Source of the DNA: Peptococcaceae bacterium
Lineage (GTDB): Bacteria > Bacillota > Desulfitobacteriia > Desulfitobacteriales > Syntrophobotulaceae
Assembly: GCA_012517475.1 (NCBI GenBank)
Contig: JAAYUV010000057.1
Span: forward strand, 1-57,686
Direction of reading: 5' to 3'
Length of the DNA: 57,686 nucleotides
The position numbers and the translations under genes are program-made. Position 1 is the first letter of the stretch. Each line of letters opens with the position of its first letter. The notes below the pieces were generated by a model that saw nothing but the letters and a program-made list of their open reading frames with translations, did not search any database and was not told the DNA's origin. Positions 48,726 to 57,686 of the stretch are shown here, piece after piece.

Positions 48726-49409
48726 CTAGACGGATTTTATTCTATATTGTTTTGTTGGCCTGCCCACGGTTCCATACTCCAAATCCACAGTAATCTTTTC
48801 TTCATGAAGAAGATACTCCAGATAGCGCCAAACGGTTATTCTTGACATCGATAAAGCAGAAGCAATTTGCTGACAAGTCAGATAGTTGTCATGTTTTAGT
48901 AGAAAAGTCAGGATTTGTTCCAAGGTGATTAAATGAAGTCCTTTGGGGAGACTGGGCAGTGTCTTTTCCTTTTCTGCAAAAAGGTTTAACTGGTCCAGGT
49001 CATCTTGACTTAGCTTTGCTGTTTTAGATATCAGATTGCGAATTTTGAGATAACTTTTTAATGCTCTTTCCAGACGAATATCGTCAAAAGGTTTAAGAAT
49101 ATAGTCTATCGCGCCCAAGCGAAAGATCTTATTAATTGTCGCAGAATCGCTGGCGGCCGTGACGCAAATCACGTCAGACGGCAGCTCGAAATAGCGTATT
49201 TGTTTTAACAGATCTACTCCGTTTCCCTCCGGCAAGTAAATGTCCAATAAGACTAAATCAGGCCTAAGTTCTTTAATTCTCTCCAAAGCGTCCGTTTCTT
49301 CGGAACTTGATCCAACCACACAAAAATCCGGAAGTTTTTCAATATATTTTTTATTGATATAAGCCACCATGGGATCATCTTCTACAATATAGACCTTTGC
49401 TTTATTCAT
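48726..49409 (-). CDS. CitB/DcuR-family response regulator
   Basis: A 227-residue two-component regulator. The receiver domain has the acidic pair D11-D12, the phosphorylation site D56 in LVLLDIYLPEG and the conserved Lys in YILKPFDD. The C-terminal domain (LKHDNYLTCQQIASALSMSR, ITVWRYLEYLLHEEKI) is the helix-turn-helix of the CitT/DcuR/MalR class. Partners of this class sense extracellular citrate, fumarate, malate or similar acids. Its kinase gene lies upstream in the same direction, but an IS110 remnant separates the two, so it may now depend on a promoter in that element. Confidence 0.93.
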   Translation of the reverse strand: MNKAKVYIVEDDPMVAYINKKYIEKLPDFCVVGSSSEETDALERIKELRPDLVLLDIYLPEGNGVDLLKQIRYFELPSDVICVTAASDSATINKIFRLGAIDYILKPFDDIRLERALKSYLKIRNLISKTAKLSQDDLDQLNLFAEKEKTLPSLPKGLHLITLEQILTFLLKHDNYLTCQQIASALSMSRITVWRYLEYLLHEEKITVDLEYGTVGRPTKQYRIKSV

Positions 49410-49429: not shown

Positions 49430-49711
49430 GCTTCGCTCAAGGCACAAAACGGCATGAAACCGTTGCCCTTGAGCTTGCTTTATTTTAAAACTATCTTGTT
49501 GAGATTACAGGCAACTACAAATCACGTGGAGGTGAGTGCGCTGCTCCTTTGGGAGTAGACCGCATATTTATATGTGTGGACTGTCCTATCAAGCACAAAT
49601 AAGTGTGCCATTAGAGCACGAAGACTTATCTTTGTATAAACAACTCGTTTATAGCTGGACAATCAGTTAATGCCTGCTCTTCTCAATAATTCTTTGCGAA
49701 GGGAGACTTTA
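49430..49711 (+). mobile_element. IS110 element left end, candidate bridge-RNA region
   Basis: Between the response-regulator start and the transposase start are about 280 non-coding bases rich in secondary structure: CTCAAGG/CCTTGAG with inner AACGG/CCGTT (49436-49473), CTCC-TTTG-GGAG near 49552, and CCGCATA-TTTA-TATGTGTGG near 49560-49580. In IS110-group elements the sequence before the recombinase encodes a bridge RNA that pairs with target and donor DNA. Exact element ends cannot be set because IS110 elements lack terminal inverted repeats. Confidence 0.45.
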
Positions 49712-50771
49712 ATGCTAAAAATCGTTTACCCCATCTGTTGTGGAATTGATGTCCACAATAAGTTTCTTGTTGCCTGTATTGCCACTACCAATGACAAAGG
49801 GGTTACCACTTACAAGTCTCATCGTTTTTCTACCTACACAAATGATTTGCGAAAGCTTTCGGATTGGCTTTCCTCTAATTCCCGCCCACATGTTTGCATG
49901 GAATCAACCGGCAAATATTGGGTGCCTGTGTACAATATTTTGGAAGCCACCTGTAAAATCACTCTGGCCCATCCAAAGTACGTCAAGGCGATTCACGGCA
50001 AGAAAACCGATAAAAAGGATGCCAGATGGATTGCTGACCTGTTTAAGCACGACCTTGTTGCCGGAAGTTTTATGCCACCTCTCCCAATTCGTCAACTGCG
50101 TGACTTGATGCGTTACCGTTTCAAGCTCACAAACTTTAAGTCCAGCGAGAAGAACCGGATTCAAAATTGTCTTACTGTATCAAATATCCAGCTTGCCAAC
50201 GTGGTATCTGATACTTTCGGTAAGAGTTCAATGAAAATCATTGACTACTTGCTTGAAAATCCTGATGATAAGGATTTCGATTTTGTTCCTCTTCTTCACG
50301 CCTCCATGTTGAATAAGGTGGATAAGATCCGACTTGCTTTAGACGGGATGATTACCCCCGAGCAACAGCAAAAAATGAATATTATCCTTTAAACACTTGT
50401 GTTCCTGGACAGGGGTGACTCCTCAAAACAACGAGAGTGCGAGCAAAAAACATTCTGTGCGCATCTCCCGTGCCGGTGTTTATATCAAACCACTTTTAGT
50501 CCAATGTGCAAACGCAGTTGTTAAAAGCGATAAACACCCTGAAATCAAGGGCCGCTATTTGTCCGTTAAGAAGCGACGTGGACATAAGCGTGCTATTATT
50601 GCGGTTGCCCGAATGTTGCTAACCGCCATATATCACATCCTTAAGAAAGGAGAACCCTACAATCCCGAACTCTACAAAAAGGCAGAAATTATGCCGCAGA
50701 CTCGCAATATCACTGTAGAACAAGCTATTTTAATAGCTCGAAGGCACGGGTACTCAGTAATTAAGGGTTGA
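49712..50771 (+). pseudogene. IS110-family transposase, internally deleted and frame-disrupted
   Basis: 49712-50392 encodes the N-terminal DEDD domain: CGIDVHNKFLVA, MESTGKYWVPVYN and HGKKTDKKDARWIADL contain the catalytic acidic residues. The frame ends at TAA 50390-50392. From 50394 another frame continues the family's C-terminal domain: HLCSWTGVTPQNNESASKKH, then RISRAGVYIKPLLVQCANA, with the catalytic serine region. The segment of roughly 70-80 residues that normally joins these parts, including the PGI motif region, is absent, so the break is a deletion rather than a simple frameshift. The enzyme cannot be functional. It lies on the plus strand, opposite to the two-component genes it separates. 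Confidence 0.85.
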
Positions 50772-50840: not shown

Positions 50841-52451
50841 TTAGGTTATACCGCCAGAGTACTTGGTTTCAGACTTGTCCTCCCTATTCAAGTTATAAGG
50901 AATGATTACCCTGAATGTTGTTCCAAGTTCTCTGGAAATGACGATGACCTTTCCCCCTGCAACTTTTACTCTACCCTGGAGGTTAAACAGACCTAGTCCT
51001 TGGCCGTCTTTCTTTGTGGTAAATCCCTGATCGAAAATGTAAGGCAGAATATGGTCTGGTATTCCAGATCCGCTGTCACTTACTTCAATTTTTATCTCTT
51101 CAGCAGTTTGTTCGATCAGAATACTTACTTCGCGCTGTGATTTGTTGGAGGGTAAAGAATCAAAGGCGTTTTCAATTAAATTGCCTAAGACAATAACCAT
51201 GGCGTGTTCGTCGAAAAACGTTGGAAGCTTATATAACCTGCTTTTTTGGTCAATCATAAAACGAATTTGTTTTTCTTCCGCTTCGCTGGCTTTTCCCATT
51301 AAGAGACCTGCAACCGTGCTGGATTGTATGTGATCCATCAAAAAGCTGACTAAATTTCGTTCTTTGAAAGTTATTTCTGATATATATGAACGTGCTTCAT
51401 CCAGTGCTTCCAGGTTAATGAGGCCCAAAATGACGTGAAGTTTATTTAAATACTCATGAGTTCTCGCCCGTAACGCAGCGACAATTTTTTTAACCCCGGT
51501 TAGCTCTTCAGCAATTTTGTTAACCTCTGTCAGAGGACGAAAAGTTGCGATAGCTCCTACAATTTTTCCTTTAATGGTTAAGGCAACACGGTTAGTCATT
51601 ACAACACTATTGTTAATTATCAACTGTTGATCTTCCTGTAGGTAATTGGAGTCCATAACAGCGGGGAGTTGGGAATCTGGTATCAGCTCCCGGATGTCTC
51701 GCCCCAAAAAATGTGTATCAACTGGGAATAGATTCCTGGCCGTCTGATTAATCATCGTGATTTTGCAATTTTGATCTATTGCAATAATTCCCTCTTTTAC
51801 AGAATGGATGATGGTTTCTCTTTCCTGCAAACGGGTGGCTATTTCCAAAGGTTCCATTCCAAACATGATTTTTTTGACACTTCCAGCCAATAAGAAAGAA
51901 AAACAAATAATTAAAGCAAGACTGAAAGGTATGATGAAATAAAAAATATTATAAATCTTGGATAGAATCATAGAAATATCCGGTTGAAAGAAACCAACGG
52001 CAATGACGCCAACCTGGGTACTTCCGCGTAATATTGGCCGGAATGCCCGGATAGAAAGACCGGAAACCCCGACCGCTTTGGAAGTATAGGATTGACCGCG
52101 TAAAGCCGGGCCTTCATCTCCACCGGAAAAAGGGAGTCCGATTAATGAACGGTCCGGGTGGGTATAACGAATACCTTTCATGTCCATAAAGACAACGAAG
52201 ACAGCTTGAGTTTCCGCCCGGATTTCATCAGCAATTTCCTGCAAATTTTTGCTGGGGTCCCCGCTTGCATATGCCGAAATCACATCTTGCCGGGTTGCGG
52301 CCAGAGAAGCGATATCTAAAGCCTGGCGGGCAATTTGATTTTCGAAACTATTGATAAATGTATAATGAAGAATGGAAAGGGCAAGCAATAGGGGAATAAT
52401 ACTGCTAATCAAAGTAATGAAAAAAATACGGGCTTTAAGCGGGAGTTGCAT
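50841..52451 (-). CDS. CitA/DcuS-family sensor histidine kinase
   Basis: A 536-residue membrane kinase. Membrane helix 1 is at about residues 9-30 and helix 2 at about 170-192; between them is an extracytoplasmic Cache/PAS sensor (VFVVFMDMKGIRYTHPDRSL is typical of CitA/DcuS). A cytoplasmic PAS domain spans about 208-305. The Spo0B-type H-box is ALRARTHEYLNKLHVILGLI. The ATPase domain has NLIENAFDSL (N), VSDSGSGIPD (G1) and GLGLFNLQGRVKVAGG (G2). It probably senses a di- or tricarboxylate. It is transcribed away from the CODH-like operon, across a shared regulatory region. Confidence 0.95.
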   Translation of the reverse strand: MQLPLKARIFFITLISSIIPLLLALSILHYTFINSFENQIARQALDIASLAATRQDVISAYASGDPSKNLQEIADEIRAETQAVFVVFMDMKGIRYTHPDRSLIGLPFSGGDEGPALRGQSYTSKAVGVSGLSIRAFRPILRGSTQVGVIAVGFFQPDISMILSKIYNIFYFIIPFSLALIICFSFLLAGSVKKIMFGMEPLEIATRLQERETIIHSVKEGIIAIDQNCKITMINQTARNLFPVDTHFLGRDIRELIPDSQLPAVMDSNYLQEDQQLIINNSVVMTNRVALTIKGKIVGAIATFRPLTEVNKIAEELTGVKKIVAALRARTHEYLNKLHVILGLINLEALDEARSYISEITFKERNLVSFLMDHIQSSTVAGLLMGKASEAEEKQIRFMIDQKSRLYKLPTFFDEHAMVIVLGNLIENAFDSLPSNKSQREVSILIEQTAEEIKIEVSDSGSGIPDHILPYIFDQGFTTKKDGQGLGLFNLQGRVKVAGGKVIVISRELGTTFRVIIPYNLNREDKSETKYSGGIT

Positions 52452-52546: not shown

Positions 52547-52695
52547 CCGGGGTAAAGCAAACTGAAAAAACAATAAACAAAATCAGAACAATAAGAACAA
52601 TAAGAAAACAAAAAGAACATTTATAGGTGACATGGGATAAAAATAGAAAATATTCCATGTCTTTTTGATTAATGAAAGAAGGGAGGGAATATTTT

Positions 52696-53214
52696 ATGAC
52701 AAACAGTAATAGTTCCAAAAAAAGGATTTTCTGTGATCAGAAACTTTGCCTTGGGTGTAAAACATGTGAACTGCGCTGCGCGGTTGAAAGAAGTTCGGTC
52801 AGTAAAAGTTTAACAGACGCTGTAAGAGAGGGGATTCTCCCAAGACCCCGGGTATATGTAGAATGGGATGGAAACAGGCCCTTTGCCTTGCAGTGCCGTC
52901 ATTGCCAGGAGGCCCCCTGTTTGGAAATCTGTTCTACAGGTGCTTTGCGAAAAGATGAAGAGAGCGGATGCACTTATATTGACGGGGAGCGCTGCATTAG
53001 CTGCTGGATGTGTGTAATGGTCTGCCCGTATGGTATGATTGCTCCTGCTGTGGAAAAAAATGCCGCAGATAAATGCGACCAGTGTTTCCAAATGGCAGAG
53101 CCTTTCTGTCTGGCTTCATGTCCGACCGGAGCCCTGCAGCTATTGACTCCTGAAGAATATGAAAAAACTTTCGCCCAAAAGAGAATCAACGCTTTTCAGT
53201 CTCTAAATGGTTAA
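52696..53214 (+). CDS. CooF-like four-cluster ferredoxin
   Basis: A 172-residue polyferredoxin related to CooF, the electron carrier of CO dehydrogenases, and to HycB/DmsB-type subunits. Four cysteine sets are seen: CLGCKTCELRC, CRHCQEAPCLEIC, CISCWMCVMVC and CDQCFQMAEPFCLASC, predicting four [4Fe-4S] clusters. ATG 52696 follows AGGGAGG. It is the first gene of the operon divergent from the kinase and would accept or donate electrons to the CODH-like protein next door. Confidence 0.9.
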   Translation: MTNSNSSKKRIFCDQKLCLGCKTCELRCAVERSSVSKSLTDAVREGILPRPRVYVEWDGNRPFALQCRHCQEAPCLEICSTGALRKDEESGCTYIDGERCISCWMCVMVCPYGMIAPAVEKNAADKCDQCFQMAEPFCLASCPTGALQLLTPEEYEKTFAQKRINAFQSLNG

Positions 53215-53238: not shown

Positions 53239-54609
53239 ATGCGTCAAGTTCGGAAAAAAAGCGCCGATCCGGCTGCCCGTCCTTATTTGCTTAAAGCGAG
53301 ACAAGAAGGTCTGGAATTATCCTGGAATCGATTTGAAAGTATGCTTCCGCAGGATGGATTCGGCAAGCTGGGATTAACCTGTTTTGAGTGTCTGCAAGGC
53401 CCGTGTCGGCTGAATCCTTTCAGTCAAAATGAAGAATTGACCATTTGCGGACGCAGCAAAGAAGATCTGGTCGGTCAAAACCTTCTCCGGATACTAAACC
53501 AATCATCCGATGCCCAAGAGGTGTTTGTTGCTGACAATCCCGGATCGACTTTAACAGAAAAACTATTAAAAACAGCACAGATGCAAATCGAGGAAAAGAA
53601 AAAGAACAGGGAATCCTTAAGTAAAGAGAAGATTTCCAAGCAAGTGGGCCTGGGAGTTTTAAGAGAGGATAAGGTAAATATTTGTCTGGAGGGTATAACT
53701 TCGTCAGTATTGAAGGCATGCGCTGCCCTGGCCGAAGAAATGACAGAGGAAGCGGTAAACAGAGGCGCCAAGGGCTATAACCTTGTCTTAGCGGGAGATG
53801 TAACTCCCCATTACCCAGTACCGACAGTGAGCAATGCCGGTGGGGTAGAGTTTGCTATATTGAGCGGAATTGTTGACCTATACGCAGTCGGAAAAACTGG
53901 TTTAGGTTTAGGGAAAAATGTAGTTTCCGCATATCATACTGTTTACAGAGATGCCCCTTCTCAACCGGAAAAAGAAGAGATCAAAGACTGGTTTGTACAG
54001 GCAGCCGTAGCATACGGAAAACGGAACAAGGCTAAGGTTTTACTTTCTGACCAGAACGGGCAGGCTGATTTGCTGCAGCTTAACCGGACTTTAATCAAAG
54101 CACATTTGGATCAGGGATCAATTCGGAAAATATGTGTTTTGACCGGAGGTTCCAGTGTAGCGGTTCAGGAAGATGCCTTGCTTTGTGAAGCTGCAGTTAA
54201 ACTGGCAGCCGAAGATGTCCTTTGTCTGGCTATAGGCAATGCGGCCGCAACGCTTGGCAAATATGGACTTTTAGCATCAGGAGCAAAAGAGGCCTCGGCT
54301 AATGTAACCCGAGCATTAGGAACGGATCAAGGAGCACCAGTATATTGGGCAGGAAGTGAAACAGAGATATTAGAAGTTTTAGATTTGATCGAAGGGGTTG
54401 GAGCAGAGCGCGTTTTGGCAATAGCTCCCGAACTTTCCACATCTGGTGATTTGCAGACGGCACTGGCATTGGCCGGAGCAGGTGTAAAAGTATTTACGGC
54501 TGTTCAACTGCCGGTCTATGGATGTGAGAAGGTGGCCAGGGATTTGGATGAGTTGATCAGCTCCTGTGCTCCAACAGATTTTGTGGAACGGATTATTGCT
54601 GAACTTTAG
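53239..54609 (+). CDS. Short CO-dehydrogenase (CooS)-like protein without C-cluster ligands
   Basis: A 456-residue protein related to CooS (usually about 630). C48, C51, C56 and C70 (TCFECLQGPCRLNPF, ICGRSKEDL) are at the exact positions of the B-cluster ligands of Carboxydothermus CODH-II. The D-cluster positions 39 and 47 are Asp and Thr. All six C-cluster ligands appear replaced: the HGH region reads CLEGIT, the C333 region GKTGLGLGK, the C446 region AIGNAAATLGKYGLL and the C476 region WAGSETEIL; the C295 and C526 segments also lack Cys. CO oxidation is therefore very unlikely. The scaffold with one [4Fe-4S] cluster may bind partners or transfer electrons. It is the second gene of the operon. 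Confidence 0.85.
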   Translation: MRQVRKKSADPAARPYLLKARQEGLELSWNRFESMLPQDGFGKLGLTCFECLQGPCRLNPFSQNEELTICGRSKEDLVGQNLLRILNQSSDAQEVFVADNPGSTLTEKLLKTAQMQIEEKKKNRESLSKEKISKQVGLGVLREDKVNICLEGITSSVLKACAALAEEMTEEAVNRGAKGYNLVLAGDVTPHYPVPTVSNAGGVEFAILSGIVDLYAVGKTGLGLGKNVVSAYHTVYRDAPSQPEKEEIKDWFVQAAVAYGKRNKAKVLLSDQNGQADLLQLNRTLIKAHLDQGSIRKICVLTGGSSVAVQEDALLCEAAVKLAAEDVLCLAIGNAAATLGKYGLLASGAKEASANVTRALGTDQGAPVYWAGSETEILEVLDLIEGVGAERVLAIAPELSTSGDLQTALALAGAGVKVFTAVQLPVYGCEKVARDLDELISSCAPTDFVERIIAEL

Positions 54610-54637: not shown

Positions 54638-55384
54638 TTGCGTATAGATGCCGCCAAATGTGTAGGCTGCGGGCAGTGTAGGCCGTTTTGTACCATGGGG
54701 TCCATTCATTTCCGGCGCAGTGAAAAAGGGACAAAGGTTCATTGTTATGTGGATGAAGAGGAGTGTGTTGACTGCGGGATCTGTTTCCGATCCAAAGTCT
54801 GTCCGGCGGATGCCCTATACCAGATTGTCCACGGTTGGCCACGTTCTATTAGGGGAACATTCAGTAATCCCCTGGCTGAGCATAAAGAGACAAGAGTTCC
54901 CGGCAGGGGCACGGAAGAAATGAAAACCAACGATATCACCAATCGTTTTAAAAGAGGATATGCCGGAATGGCCGCTGAAATGGGACGACCGGGAACGGGA
55001 GCCCGTCTTAGGGACGCAGAAAAAGTTTTCAAAGCTTTAGCCAAGTTGGGCGTAGAATTTGAACCCAATAACCCGTTGACCGGATTGCTGGCTAATAAAC
55101 AAACTGGCGAAATGAATCCGGAAGTCCTGAGCGAAAAAGTGCTTTCCGCCATTATCGAAATGGTTTTTCCGCTCGAAATGGTGATACCAGTATTGGATAC
55201 GATGGAAAAAGCCGCCCGGGAGATTGATACGGTTTTCTCCATTGACTTGGTAGCAAGGGTGGATGAAGACCTCTCTGTTCCTACGGCCAAGATTATGGAA
55301 AAATACGGAAGATGGTTCTCTTTTAACGGAAAAACAAATCTGGGCTTAGGTCGTCTCCAGGTGAAAGGAGCATATGTGTCATGA
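54638..55384 (+). CDS. Two-cluster ferredoxin fused to an unrecognised 190-residue domain
   Basis: A 248-residue protein. Residues 1-60 are a ferredoxin domain with CVGCGQCRPFC and CVDCGICFRSKVC, for two [4Fe-4S] clusters. Residues about 85-248 match no family I recognise: RFKRGYAGMAAEMGRPGTGA, RLRDAEKVFKALAKLGVEFE and VFSIDLVARVDEDL stand out. The domain has a conserved look (Gly/Arg-rich turn, then amphipathic helices) and no cysteine. TTG 54638 is the start, seven bases after AAAGGAGGG. It overlaps the next gene by four bases (ATGA), showing tight coupling. Confidence 0.85.
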   Translation: MRIDAAKCVGCGQCRPFCTMGSIHFRRSEKGTKVHCYVDEEECVDCGICFRSKVCPADALYQIVHGWPRSIRGTFSNPLAEHKETRVPGRGTEEMKTNDITNRFKRGYAGMAAEMGRPGTGARLRDAEKVFKALAKLGVEFEPNNPLTGLLANKQTGEMNPEVLSEKVLSAIIEMVFPLEMVIPVLDTMEKAAREIDTVFSIDLVARVDEDLSVPTAKIMEKYGRWFSFNGKTNLGLGRLQVKGAYVS

Positions 55385-56022
55385 CCCACACGCTGCATCG
55401 CAAAGGTACTCCCGAAAGTTTTGAGCATGATTATGTCGTATTCTCCATGACGGCAAAAGGTTTTAATGAAAAAAATTCACGCGGAGCATTGCAAAAGTTT
55501 CTCAGAATATTAAGCAAATATGAAATTGTCAATATGGGTGATATGAAAACAGGCGGAATGTATCTGGTGGACCAGGAACAGATTATTGACAACGTGCAGG
55601 ATACATCGATTGTTCATGCCGTATTTCAAGACAAGGATGAGGTCAGAAAAGCCCTAAAAGAACTTAAAGAAGCCGATTTGGGGGTATCGGTCATTGTATC
55701 GGGAATCGTTGCCGAAGTTGAGGGAGTCTGCCAGGATGTCGGGATAGAACGGCATACGGTGGAGTACTCGGTAGGAATCAGAGGGAATCTTTCCAGGCTT
55801 CCTGAAGAAGAACTCCTCGAAATAACAACCATGTGCGGACATGGTATGGTATCTCAGCATCTGGCCAGGCAGATGCTTCTGGATATCAAGAGGGGCAGAA
55901 GAAGTGCTCAGGAAGCAGGAGAAATCTTGGCTACCCCTTGTGTCTGCGGTGTTTTTAACCCCCACAGAGCGAGAAAATTACTGGAAGAATTGGTTGAAGT
56001 CTGGTGTTACGATGAGCTTTGA
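55381..56022 (+). CDS. Unrecognised protein with conserved-looking cysteine motifs
   Basis: A 213-residue soluble protein of no family I recognise. The N-terminal half (DYVVFSMTAKGFNEKNSRGA, LQKFLRILSKYEIVNMGDM) resembles a mixed alpha/beta ligand- or subunit-binding fold. The C-terminal half carries TTMCGHGMVSQHLARQMLLD and ATPCVCGVFNPHRARKLLEE; these Cys and His residues could bind a metal or Fe-S cluster. Its start overlaps the stop of the ferredoxin-fusion gene, so the two proteins are probably made together and may form a complex. Confidence 0.85.
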   Translation: MTHTLHRKGTPESFEHDYVVFSMTAKGFNEKNSRGALQKFLRILSKYEIVNMGDMKTGGMYLVDQEQIIDNVQDTSIVHAVFQDKDEVRKALKELKEADLGVSVIVSGIVAEVEGVCQDVGIERHTVEYSVGIRGNLSRLPEEELLEITTMCGHGMVSQHLARQMLLDIKRGRRSAQEAGEILATPCVCGVFNPHRARKLLEELVEVWCYDEL

Positions 56023-56043: not shown

Positions 56044-57264
56044 ATGGCTTATTTGATCATTGGCAATGGTCCGGCAGGAGTAAGCGCGATTGAGCGGATC
56101 AGGGAGATTGATCCGCAGGGGAAGATCATGCTTGTTTCCAGGGAGAATAACCCTCCTTACAGTCGCATTATGACTCCGGAGTATATGATATCCGAAGTGG
56201 ACGAAGAAAATCTATTTTACCGAGGTACAGGGTTTTATGAAAGATATTCGGTTGAAACAAGATTGGGCTGTAAGGTGAAAGCCATTGTCCCCGAGAAAAA
56301 GACAGTTATCCTGGAGAACCAAGAGGAAATCGGATATAAACGTGTACTGATCGCTTCCGGTTCAAGGCCTATTGTACCTTCCTGGGCAGATACAGGGATC
56401 AAAGGGGTTTTTACACTCTGGGATAAAGCGGATTCCGTAGTTATTAACCAGCAACTGGGGGAGACCAAAGAGGCGGTTATTATCGGGGGAGGTTTGGTAG
56501 GGCTCCAAGCTGCCAGAGCATTGTCTGCCAGAAAGATTAAAGTAACTATTATTGAAAAAATGAAACAGCTTATGCCCTTGCAGTTGGATACTATCGCTTC
56601 TTCGCTTCTTCTTCAAGCCGTAATGAAACAAGGGATTGATGTTCATCTGGATACCGAAGTTCTTTCTCTTGAGAGTCAGAACGGAAAAATCACGGCTGTA
56701 GCTACCAAAGATCAAACCATTCCTGCAGACTTGGTTATTGTAGCTATCGGAGCCAAGCCAAATCTTGAAATGACCGTTGGAACAGCATTGGAGAGGGACA
56801 AGGGATTAATAACCAATGAATATATGCAAACAAATATTCCCGATATTTATGCGGCCGGCGATGTTGCTCAGGCGTATTGTCGGCTTACAGGGGAAAAGAC
56901 GGTAAGAGCACTTTGGTTATCTGCCGTGCAGCAAGGGAAGGTAGCTGGGGCCAATATGGCAGGCCGTCAAGAGAGATATTTAGGAAGCACAGCCATGAAT
57001 TCTATTCAACTCTTTGGACTTTCCATCATTTCTCAAGGACGGATTGAAGCTCTTCAGGAAACAGACGAAATTATTTTAAAGTATCAAGATAGGGGTGTTT
57101 ATCAAAAGCTTGTCTGTGAAGATGGAAGACTCATTGGTTTTATACTTGTCGGGGATGTACGGCAAGCAGGAGTTCTTCACTACAAACTTGGCCAAAGTCT
57201 CTTCTCTGGTTATTGGGGAGGTTTCAGGATCCCCGATGGCTATCAAGTAAATCCCACATTCTAA
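56044..57264 (+). CDS. FAD-dependent NAD(P)H oxidoreductase
   Basis: A 406-residue flavoprotein of the pyridine nucleotide-disulfide oxidoreductase class, similar to rubredoxin reductases and NirB N-terminal domains. The FAD site is IIGNGPAGVSAIERI, the NAD(P) site VIIGGGLVGLQAARAL and the second FAD motif DIYAAGDVAQAY. No redox-active CxxxxC pair is visible. CooS-CooF-flavoprotein operons are known, in which such an enzyme couples CO-derived electrons to NAD(P). Here it would couple the CODH-like complex to NAD(P)H. GGGG-rich sequence precedes the ATG, 22 bases after the previous gene. Confidence 0.93.
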   Translation: MAYLIIGNGPAGVSAIERIREIDPQGKIMLVSRENNPPYSRIMTPEYMISEVDEENLFYRGTGFYERYSVETRLGCKVKAIVPEKKTVILENQEEIGYKRVLIASGSRPIVPSWADTGIKGVFTLWDKADSVVINQQLGETKEAVIIGGGLVGLQAARALSARKIKVTIIEKMKQLMPLQLDTIASSLLLQAVMKQGIDVHLDTEVLSLESQNGKITAVATKDQTIPADLVIVAIGAKPNLEMTVGTALERDKGLITNEYMQTNIPDIYAAGDVAQAYCRLTGEKTVRALWLSAVQQGKVAGANMAGRQERYLGSTAMNSIQLFGLSIISQGRIEALQETDEIILKYQDRGVYQKLVCEDGRLIGFILVGDVRQAGVLHYKLGQSLFSGYWGGFRIPDGYQVNPTF

Positions 57265-57318
57265 ATTCAAATAAGATTTTATGGCCTTGGCTAAACTTCG
57301 ATGTCCTTGGGGACAAAG

Positions 57319-57388
57319 CATCCAATATAAGATTTATTAAATTGGATGGGTATGTCAAAGGAGGGGCAGATCCTGAAGAGGATCTGCC
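57319..57388 (+). terminator. Two hairpins after the oxidoreductase gene
   Basis: CATCCAAT (57319-57326) pairs with ATTGGATG (57341-57348). GGCAGATCCT (57365-57374), loop GAAG, pairs perfectly with AGGATCTGCC (57379-57388). No T tract follows the second, so termination is uncertain; the pair could form an attenuator or stabilising structure between the operon and the carrier gene. Confidence 0.45.
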
Positions 57389-57509
57389 ATCTGCCTAAAG
57401 CCCTTAAAGAAAACGCTATTATATAAATAAAACTTATTGTACTAAGGTATTTACTTATTTCGCAGAAAAGAAAATTTCATAGAAAGAAAGTATATAAGGA
57501 GGATGACAA

Positions 57510-57686
57510 ATGAGTTTAGGTTTTTTAGCTAATACTGGGTTTGCAAAGGCTCTTGCTGCCAACATGGACATGATCTCCCTGATCGTAATCGTCATAGCCA
57601 TTATCATTACAATTTGGAAAGATACCAACCTGGGAACTCTTGCTCTTGGTATGGCGCTTGTAGTAGGTTATTTCATCGGCGGAATA
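57510..57686 (+). CDS. Membrane carrier, MatC-like N-terminus (3' end outside window)
   Basis: The first 59 codons are present, starting at ATG 57510, six bases after AAGGAGG. Residues about 20-37 (DMISLIVIVIAIIITIWKDT) and 42-59 (LGTLALGMALVVGYFIGGI) are two membrane helices arranged as in the N-terminal domain of MatC-type dicarboxylate carriers. A dicarboxylate carrier would match the CitA/DcuS-type sensor encoded upstream. The rest of the gene is outside the window, so the assignment is tentative. Confidence 0.6.
   Translation, partial: MSLGFLANTGFAKALAANMDMISLIVIVIAIIITIWKDTNLGTLALGMALVVGYFIGGI

Follow-up and report, generated by a model that had tools for sequence, protein, structure and literature searches.

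The window analysed here, a stretch of 57,686 nucleotides from a contig of a Peptococcaceae bacterium, contains close to its end an operon of five genes transcribed from the forward strand. CooF (52696..53214) is a CooF-like multi-[4Fe-4S] electron-transfer protein; mini-CooS (53239..54609) is a protein of the CO dehydrogenase (CODH) fold, with an intact reading frame of 456 amino acids that runs from an ATG at 53239 to a stop codon at 54607-54609; FdX (54638..55384) carries two ferredoxin-type [4Fe-4S] motifs and a conserved C-terminal domain; DUFx (55381..56022) represents a new family, with a ferredoxin-like alpha/beta N-terminal part, a helical C-terminal part and the motifs C152-G153-H154 and C187-x-C189; and FNOR (56044..57264) is an FAD/NAD(P)-binding oxidoreductase. 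The listed reading frame of CooF opens at 52672, and the start at 52696 was favoured on the basis of the orthologs and of AGGGAGGG upstream of the later ATG. FdX starts with a TTG preceded by AGAAAGGAGGG; the earlier start given by the ORF caller (54566) overlaps mini-CooS. The order CooF, mini-CooS, FdX, DUFx and FNOR is kept across the relatives examined. FNOR and CooF resemble PadH and PadI of phenylglyoxylate:NAD oxidoreductase: the best NCBIfam model for FNOR is that of PadH (E 2.9e-80, below the curated cut-off), and CooF matches the PadI model (E 6e-20, likewise below the cut-off). CooF and FNOR may link to NAD as a module of the PadI/PadH type; the models of that system list no CODH-like subunit, and its catalytic subunits differ.

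Divergent to the operon lies a gene for a DcuS/MalK-like sensor histidine kinase (50841..52451, reverse strand), followed further away by one for a DcuR/DpiA-like response regulator (48726..49409, reverse strand). Between them, at 49670-50771, lies a transposase of the IS110 family that comes in two parts (DEDD_Tnp_IS110 and Transposase_20). The kinase and regulator genes are adjacent in G053, G036 and G040, and a homologue of the kinase adjoins the operon in these three genomes and in G165; the IS110 insertion may uncouple the response regulator from its kinase in the window. Beside several of the operons the two-component genes are missing. On the other side the contig ends just past the operon (57264-57686), with an open frame from 57510 whose 59 codons look, by eye only, like the start of a membrane transporter and gave no match in a Pfam search. 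Downstream genes of the operon may be missing at this contig end.

The first-pass annotation had described mini-CooS as a CODH-like protein about 170 residues short, with the B-cluster cysteines at the same numbers as in CODH-II of Carboxydothermus hydrogenoformans and with D-cluster C39 and C47 and all six C-cluster ligands lost. This description was borne out. Residues 5-89 of both proteins align with identical numbering (phmmer; whole-sequence E 1e-28), so that C48, C51, C56 and C70 of mini-CooS are the B-cluster cysteine positions of CODH-II. For the C cluster we take the CODH-II ligands to be H261, C295, C333, C446, C476 and C526, and these numbers, like those assumed for the B and D clusters, are consistent with the motif positions given by phmmer. 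The numbering of C295 agrees with PMC13240472. When mini-CooS is aligned with 11 CooS proteins (the same genome encodes three of these), the D cluster has D for C39 and T for C47; at the C cluster H261 is replaced by I, C333 by G, C446 by G, C476 by N and C526 by E, and C295 is deleted. D-cluster cysteines vary among published CODHs too. No cysteine or histidine, which the annotation had named as evidence against its own reading, stands at a C-cluster position of the window's protein in this alignment, and the acid-base residues H93 and K563 are both absent. Compared with CODH-II (636 amino acids in 1su6), mini-CooS is short by about 180 residues, mainly because much of the region past residue 90 or so is absent. 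Against TIGR01702 it gives an E of 1e-24, yet its 86.6 bits lie below the curated cut-off of 478. Judged by these residues, mini-CooS no longer carries the nickel C cluster, and its CO chemistry has very probably gone. Among 18 Bacillota-type members three of the former ligand sites are replaced in a fixed or nearly fixed manner (C39 to D in 18/18, C446 to G in 16/18, C476 to N in 16/18) and two cysteines that the annotation had not mentioned appear in new places (C329 in all 18, C149 in 16). Such replacements, together with the invariant new C329, argue for a changed role under selection and not for random loss.

A structure model had also been proposed, and an AlphaFold model built from 15 sequences (mean pLDDT 83.8) keeps the CODH fold along nearly the whole length of the protein. 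It matches the crystal structures of Desulfovibrio vulgaris CODH (6dc2; Z 31.1, rmsd 3.9 over 454 residues), CODH-II (1su6; Z 30.3) and CooS-V (7b7q; Z 28.5); the next-best match, of the fold only, is to class III hybrid-cluster protein (Z 22.4). The B-cluster loop (residues 37-55) has pLDDT values below 50, and its details are not interpretable.

The same ligand loss and the same neighbours, for which the annotation had suggested a search, were found in other genomes. Mini-CooS occurs in 11/73 genomes of the host's order, as 13 full-length copies and one remnant of 194 amino acids, at a threshold of E up to 1e-50. At this same threshold a sample of the phylum gave matches in 2/398 genomes (the window's own and G165), more divergent members such as L138 falling below it. 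Among 100 relatives, orthologs of 453-464 residues are present in G009, G049, G040, G015 and G010. Longer forms, with an open frame of about 503-547 residues, come from G068, G040, G049, G055, G053, G035 and G036; all of them, shorter and longer, lack the C-cluster ligands. Additional copies in G040 and G049 consist of CooF, mini-CooS, a shortened DUFx and FNOR, with no adjacent FdX, the nearest lying about 9 kb away. The operons adjoin TRAP transporter genes in G053, G036, G040 and G068 and TctCBA in G165, which makes 5/14 of the mini-CooS loci scanned, with flanks of differing length; a zinc-type alcohol dehydrogenase gene adjoins several of them.

Mini-CooS is under purifying selection. Its dN/dS was 0.11-0.28 in 6/6 measurable pairs and a seventh pair was saturated; these are simple counting estimates, with dS close to saturation in some pairs. 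All 13 full-length frames of the order are intact, and no in-frame stop was found in the matches to relatives. The relaxed selection that the annotation had named as contrary evidence is thus not seen, and its suggestion of a new function instead of decay is supported. The partner proteins are more constrained: in matched pairs dN/dS was 0.03-0.09 for FdX and 0.04-0.16 for DUFx, and identity to the window's proteins is 77-88% for FdX (ten relatives) and 71-81% for DUFx (full-length copies), against 32-65% for mini-CooS. Mini-CooS is a family with a conserved operon and no lone degenerate copy. Individual copies can decay, as is shown by the 194-amino-acid remnant of a second copy in G036 (L047, contig C167), which is followed by a DUFx homologue and is probably a decaying copy.

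The wider point lies beyond the mini-CooS gene, in the operon and the associated FdX-DUFx pair. Since a search of genome contigs with the window's mini-CooS alone gave no matches, the more conserved FdX was chosen as query; the best 80 of 172 relatives were considered, and an FdX reading frame was called in 74 of these 80 loci. Among the matches listed, the hosts include Bacillota, Deltaproteobacteria, Chloroflexota, Bacteroidales, Aminicenantes, Bathyarchaeota and Lokiarchaeota, among others. FdX was also found in 26/398 genomes of the phylum sample, with up to seven copies per genome; a plasmid search with FdX gave no match. One genome, G101 (contig C1), has seven FdX copies, and a number of them adjoin AOR, TRAP or Tct genes, which points to paralogs that serve different substrates. 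Among the matches listed, 65 of the 74 loci had DUFx within 8 kb of FdX, 15 a CODH-like gene, 18 Tct genes, 6 TRAP genes and 9 AOR genes. Other genes assigned by Pfam or NCBIfam near FdX-DUFx, besides TctABC, TRAP and AOR, code for proteins like 3-hydroxyisobutyrate dehydrogenase and isocitrate or isopropylmalate dehydrogenase, class V aminotransferase, RraA-like and PdxA-like proteins, LarA, the PEP mutase family, IlvD/Edd, a DHDPS-like aldolase, aconitase, AllF/AllG-type proteins and a hydantoinase-like protein. The window's genome has a second FdX-DUFx pair (L130, G000 contig C2:9000-28000) that adjoins TctABC, a gene for the large subunit of the aconitase family and an isocitrate/isopropylmalate dehydrogenase-like gene.

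Outside its ferredoxin motifs FdX had no Pfam match above the 1e-8 level; its C-terminal domain contains the motifs GRGTEEMKTN and GRP (alignment of 58/63 FdX reading frames plus that of the window). For DUFx, 62/66 reading frames plus that of the window were aligned, and C152, G153, H154, C187 and C189 were invariant in all 63 sequences. Its model (pLDDT 93.7) has an alpha/beta part and a helical part. Searches of the DUFx sequence gave only scattered weak hits in Pfam, none of them accepted, and nothing convincing in the PDB (best E 0.05); the fold search of the model had no standout (Foldseek best E 0.048, best Z 4.9). A duplication relating the C-terminal domain of FdX to the N-terminal domain of DUFx was considered and set aside, the signal being weak (hhalign probability 1.15%, E 0.046). 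By analogy with aconitase-type enzymes, the three cysteines of DUFx may bind a [4Fe-4S] cluster in which one iron is left open.

CooF and FNOR accompany the CODH-like gene. Among the matches listed, both were found within 8 kb in 10/15 FdX loci with a CODH-like gene and in 0/59 loci without one (Fisher p 4e-9, relatedness ignored). The five exceptions include two short contigs, and in one of these (L050) CooF is present on the same contig as read in L037. FdX is present in 13/73 genomes of the order: in 11/11 of those with mini-CooS and in 2/62 of the others (p 2e-11, relatedness ignored).

The CODH-like proteins beside FdX (14/15 reading frames plus that of the window, L065 being omitted from this alignment) vary in their C cluster. 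In a tree of 42 proteins, 31 FdX-linked CODH-like proteins fall on one side and the 11 CooS proteins on the other (support 100/100); the tree and the ligand table omit the G036 fragment and L152, which hardly differs from L151. In the tree the long branches of L060 and L111 are joined to each other, and those of L065 and L138 are long too. Four FdX-linked CODHs (L060, L064, L111 and L151) have a complete or nearly complete C cluster. L060, L064 and L151 keep H261, C333, C446, C476, C526 and K563, and in their C295 region (GVCT or AVCG) the cysteine is one alignment place off; L111 keeps the other C-cluster cysteines, with R at H261 and no K563. K563 is found in all 11 CooS and, among the 31, only in L060, L064 and L151. 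The tree joins six Syntrophaceae-type proteins (L073, L079, L081, L094, L150 and L153) to L064 and L151 (100/100). These six have lost C333, C446, C476, C526 and K563; L150 still has H261. The Bacillota group, L056 and L154 have lost all C-cluster ligands. Given a CODH ancestor, this tree needs two changes of state, so the C cluster was lost at least twice. The B-cluster cysteines are invariant in 31/31 proteins, whatever the state of the C cluster, and in the Syntrophaceae-type branch C39-x2-C42-x5-C48 remains in members without a C cluster, which indicates that the wiring outlived the active site.

With the anaerobic Ni-CODHs (CooS; CODH-II and CODH-IV of C. hydrogenoformans, D. vulgaris CODH), mini-CooS has the fold and the B-cluster cysteines in common; it differs in lacking the C-cluster ligands, H93, K563 and the D cluster, in being 180 residues shorter and in being linked to FdX-DUFx. 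CooS-V (clade D) and the hybrid-cluster proteins use a CODH scaffold without CO activity. They are so presented in PMC13056359 and PMC13240472. In these proteins the site still holds a modified or hybrid cluster, whereas mini-CooS has lost every C-cluster ligand. CooF and FNOR are frequent partners of ordinary CooS according to Inoue 2019 (PMC6344411), where clade G rests on one protein with a type III D cluster, His replaced by Tyr, the first Cys by Thr, and FNOR and CooF as neighbours. L064 and L151 fit these marks as given there (Tyr at H93, Thr for the first C-cluster cysteine and Cys-x2-Cys-x5-Cys in the D region), and both fall in the same clade as the window's protein (100/100) against the 11 CooS. 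By description, the clade G CODH (OGP75751) and the mini-CooS of Thermosinus carboxydivorans (WP_007288589) share with the window's protein small size and the CooF/FNOR context. Inoue 2022 (PMC8776680) places Thermosinus mini-CooS in clade G with a complete metal-cluster motif; compared with that description, the C cluster of the window's protein is wholly absent. Text searches of the literature, which covered few subscription papers, retrieved no description of CODHs without a C cluster in this operon.

We propose that mini-CooS now probably passes electrons for the breakdown of an organic acid. In the reading that we favour, and hold with about even confidence, it is an electron relay, a CODH body placed between FdX-DUFx and the CooF-FNOR module. 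FdX-DUFx would be an iron-sulfur enzyme whose substrate is an organic acid brought in from outside. Electrons would move in either direction along a chain from FdX by way of the B cluster of mini-CooS, assuming that this cluster is assembled, and CooF to FNOR, with NAD(P)H at its end, and the CODH body would serve in such a complex as a dedicated adaptor joining the enzyme to the module that ordinary CODHs use. This relay would explain why the B cluster alone is kept, why CooF and FNOR accompany the CODH-like gene and why FdX-DUFx also lives without it. It is supported by the invariance of the B-cluster cysteines irrespective of the C cluster, by both co-occurrence patterns (that of CooF and FNOR being among the matches listed), by the likeness of CooF and FNOR to PadI and PadH of the NADH-dependent phenylglyoxylate dehydrogenase and by the full-length CODH fold of the model; an organic acid as the putative substrate is suggested by the many loci in which FdX-DUFx lies beside TctABC, TRAP, sugar-acid or hydroxy-acid genes and by the TRAP or TctCBA genes next to some mini-CooS operons. 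Several observations speak against the relay. The D cluster, the usual electron exit, is also lost in the Bacillota clade (C39 to D in 18/18), the B-cluster loop is poorly modelled, and mini-CooS evolves faster than FdX and DUFx in matched pairs, which would also fit a less constrained accessory part. In addition, the second copies of G040 and G049 have no adjacent FdX, 59/74 FdX loci have no CODH-like neighbour (among the matches listed), and transporter genes are close in 5/14 mini-CooS loci only.

The main rival to the relay, which we consider unlikely, is that a new site, active or ligand-binding, has arisen in the cavity that once housed the C cluster, mini-CooS itself being catalytic or binding an organic acid while the B cluster feeds electrons. 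The near-fixed glycine and asparagine at 446 and 476, the new C329 and C149 and the conservation of E204, G333 and E398 would fit such a site. However, the conserved glycine and asparagine may be structural, other ligand positions vary (H261 gives way to I, V, A, C, P or L; the segment around C295 is mostly deleted), and C-cluster loss in the Syntrophaceae-type branch led to other residues, with S at position 446 and either E or Q at 476, so that no common new site emerges. It is more doubtful still that mini-CooS is a redox sensor, or a scaffold for the assembly or docking of FdX-DUFx, and not a turnover relay. The adjoining DcuS/DcuR-type system, the single remaining cluster in a poorly ordered loop of the model and a 2026 survey (PMC13056359), in which redox sensing or regulation is suggested as the role of clades C and D, are in line with this, but the genes linked to mini-CooS are those of CooF and FNOR, electron carriers in turnover, and not those of regulators, and the two-component genes are absent beside several operons.

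We regard it as very improbable that an unrecognised cluster lets mini-CooS still react with CO or some other small molecule, as in the hybrid-cluster proteins or CooS-V: the fold also matches both (Z 22.4 and 28.5), the latter being a CODH scaffold that holds another cluster, but mini-CooS has none of the six C-cluster ligands and neither acid-base residue. Least credible is a decaying remnant carried along in the operon. Mini-CooS is the least conserved of the five gene products in most matched pairs and one copy in G036 is a remnant, yet decay is disfavoured by the low dN/dS in all measurable pairs, by the intact frames in the order and by the invariant B cluster.

If the relay reading is correct, a CODH scaffold can persist with electron transfer as its sole task once the Ni-Fe-S active site is gone, a loss that took place separately at least twice, and annotation of this group as CO dehydrogenases by homology would be wrong. 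Proteins of this kind would also drop out of the CODH surveys that require intact cluster residues: Inoue 2022 (PMC8776680) removed sequences mutated in the B-cluster cysteines or in the last three C-cluster cysteines, PMC11338639 and PMC13240472 likewise required intact motifs, and PMC13056359 discarded sequences that were gapped at cluster positions and did not include clades G and H. The FdX-DUFx pair occurs widely in bacteria and archaea; apart from the ferredoxin motifs it matches no Pfam family, and it looks like an enzyme of anaerobic organic-acid use that has yet to be studied. Tentatively, in a broader proposal that may well prove wrong, it would be an undescribed family of iron-sulfur enzymes by which hydroxy-, sugar- or polycarboxylic acids are used anaerobically, and the three invariant DUFx cysteines would carry its substrate-binding cluster. 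At least twice, a CODH that was already part of this system would have lost its nickel site and become the pure electron conduit of the complex. Mini-CooS would then be a metalloenzyme turned into wiring.
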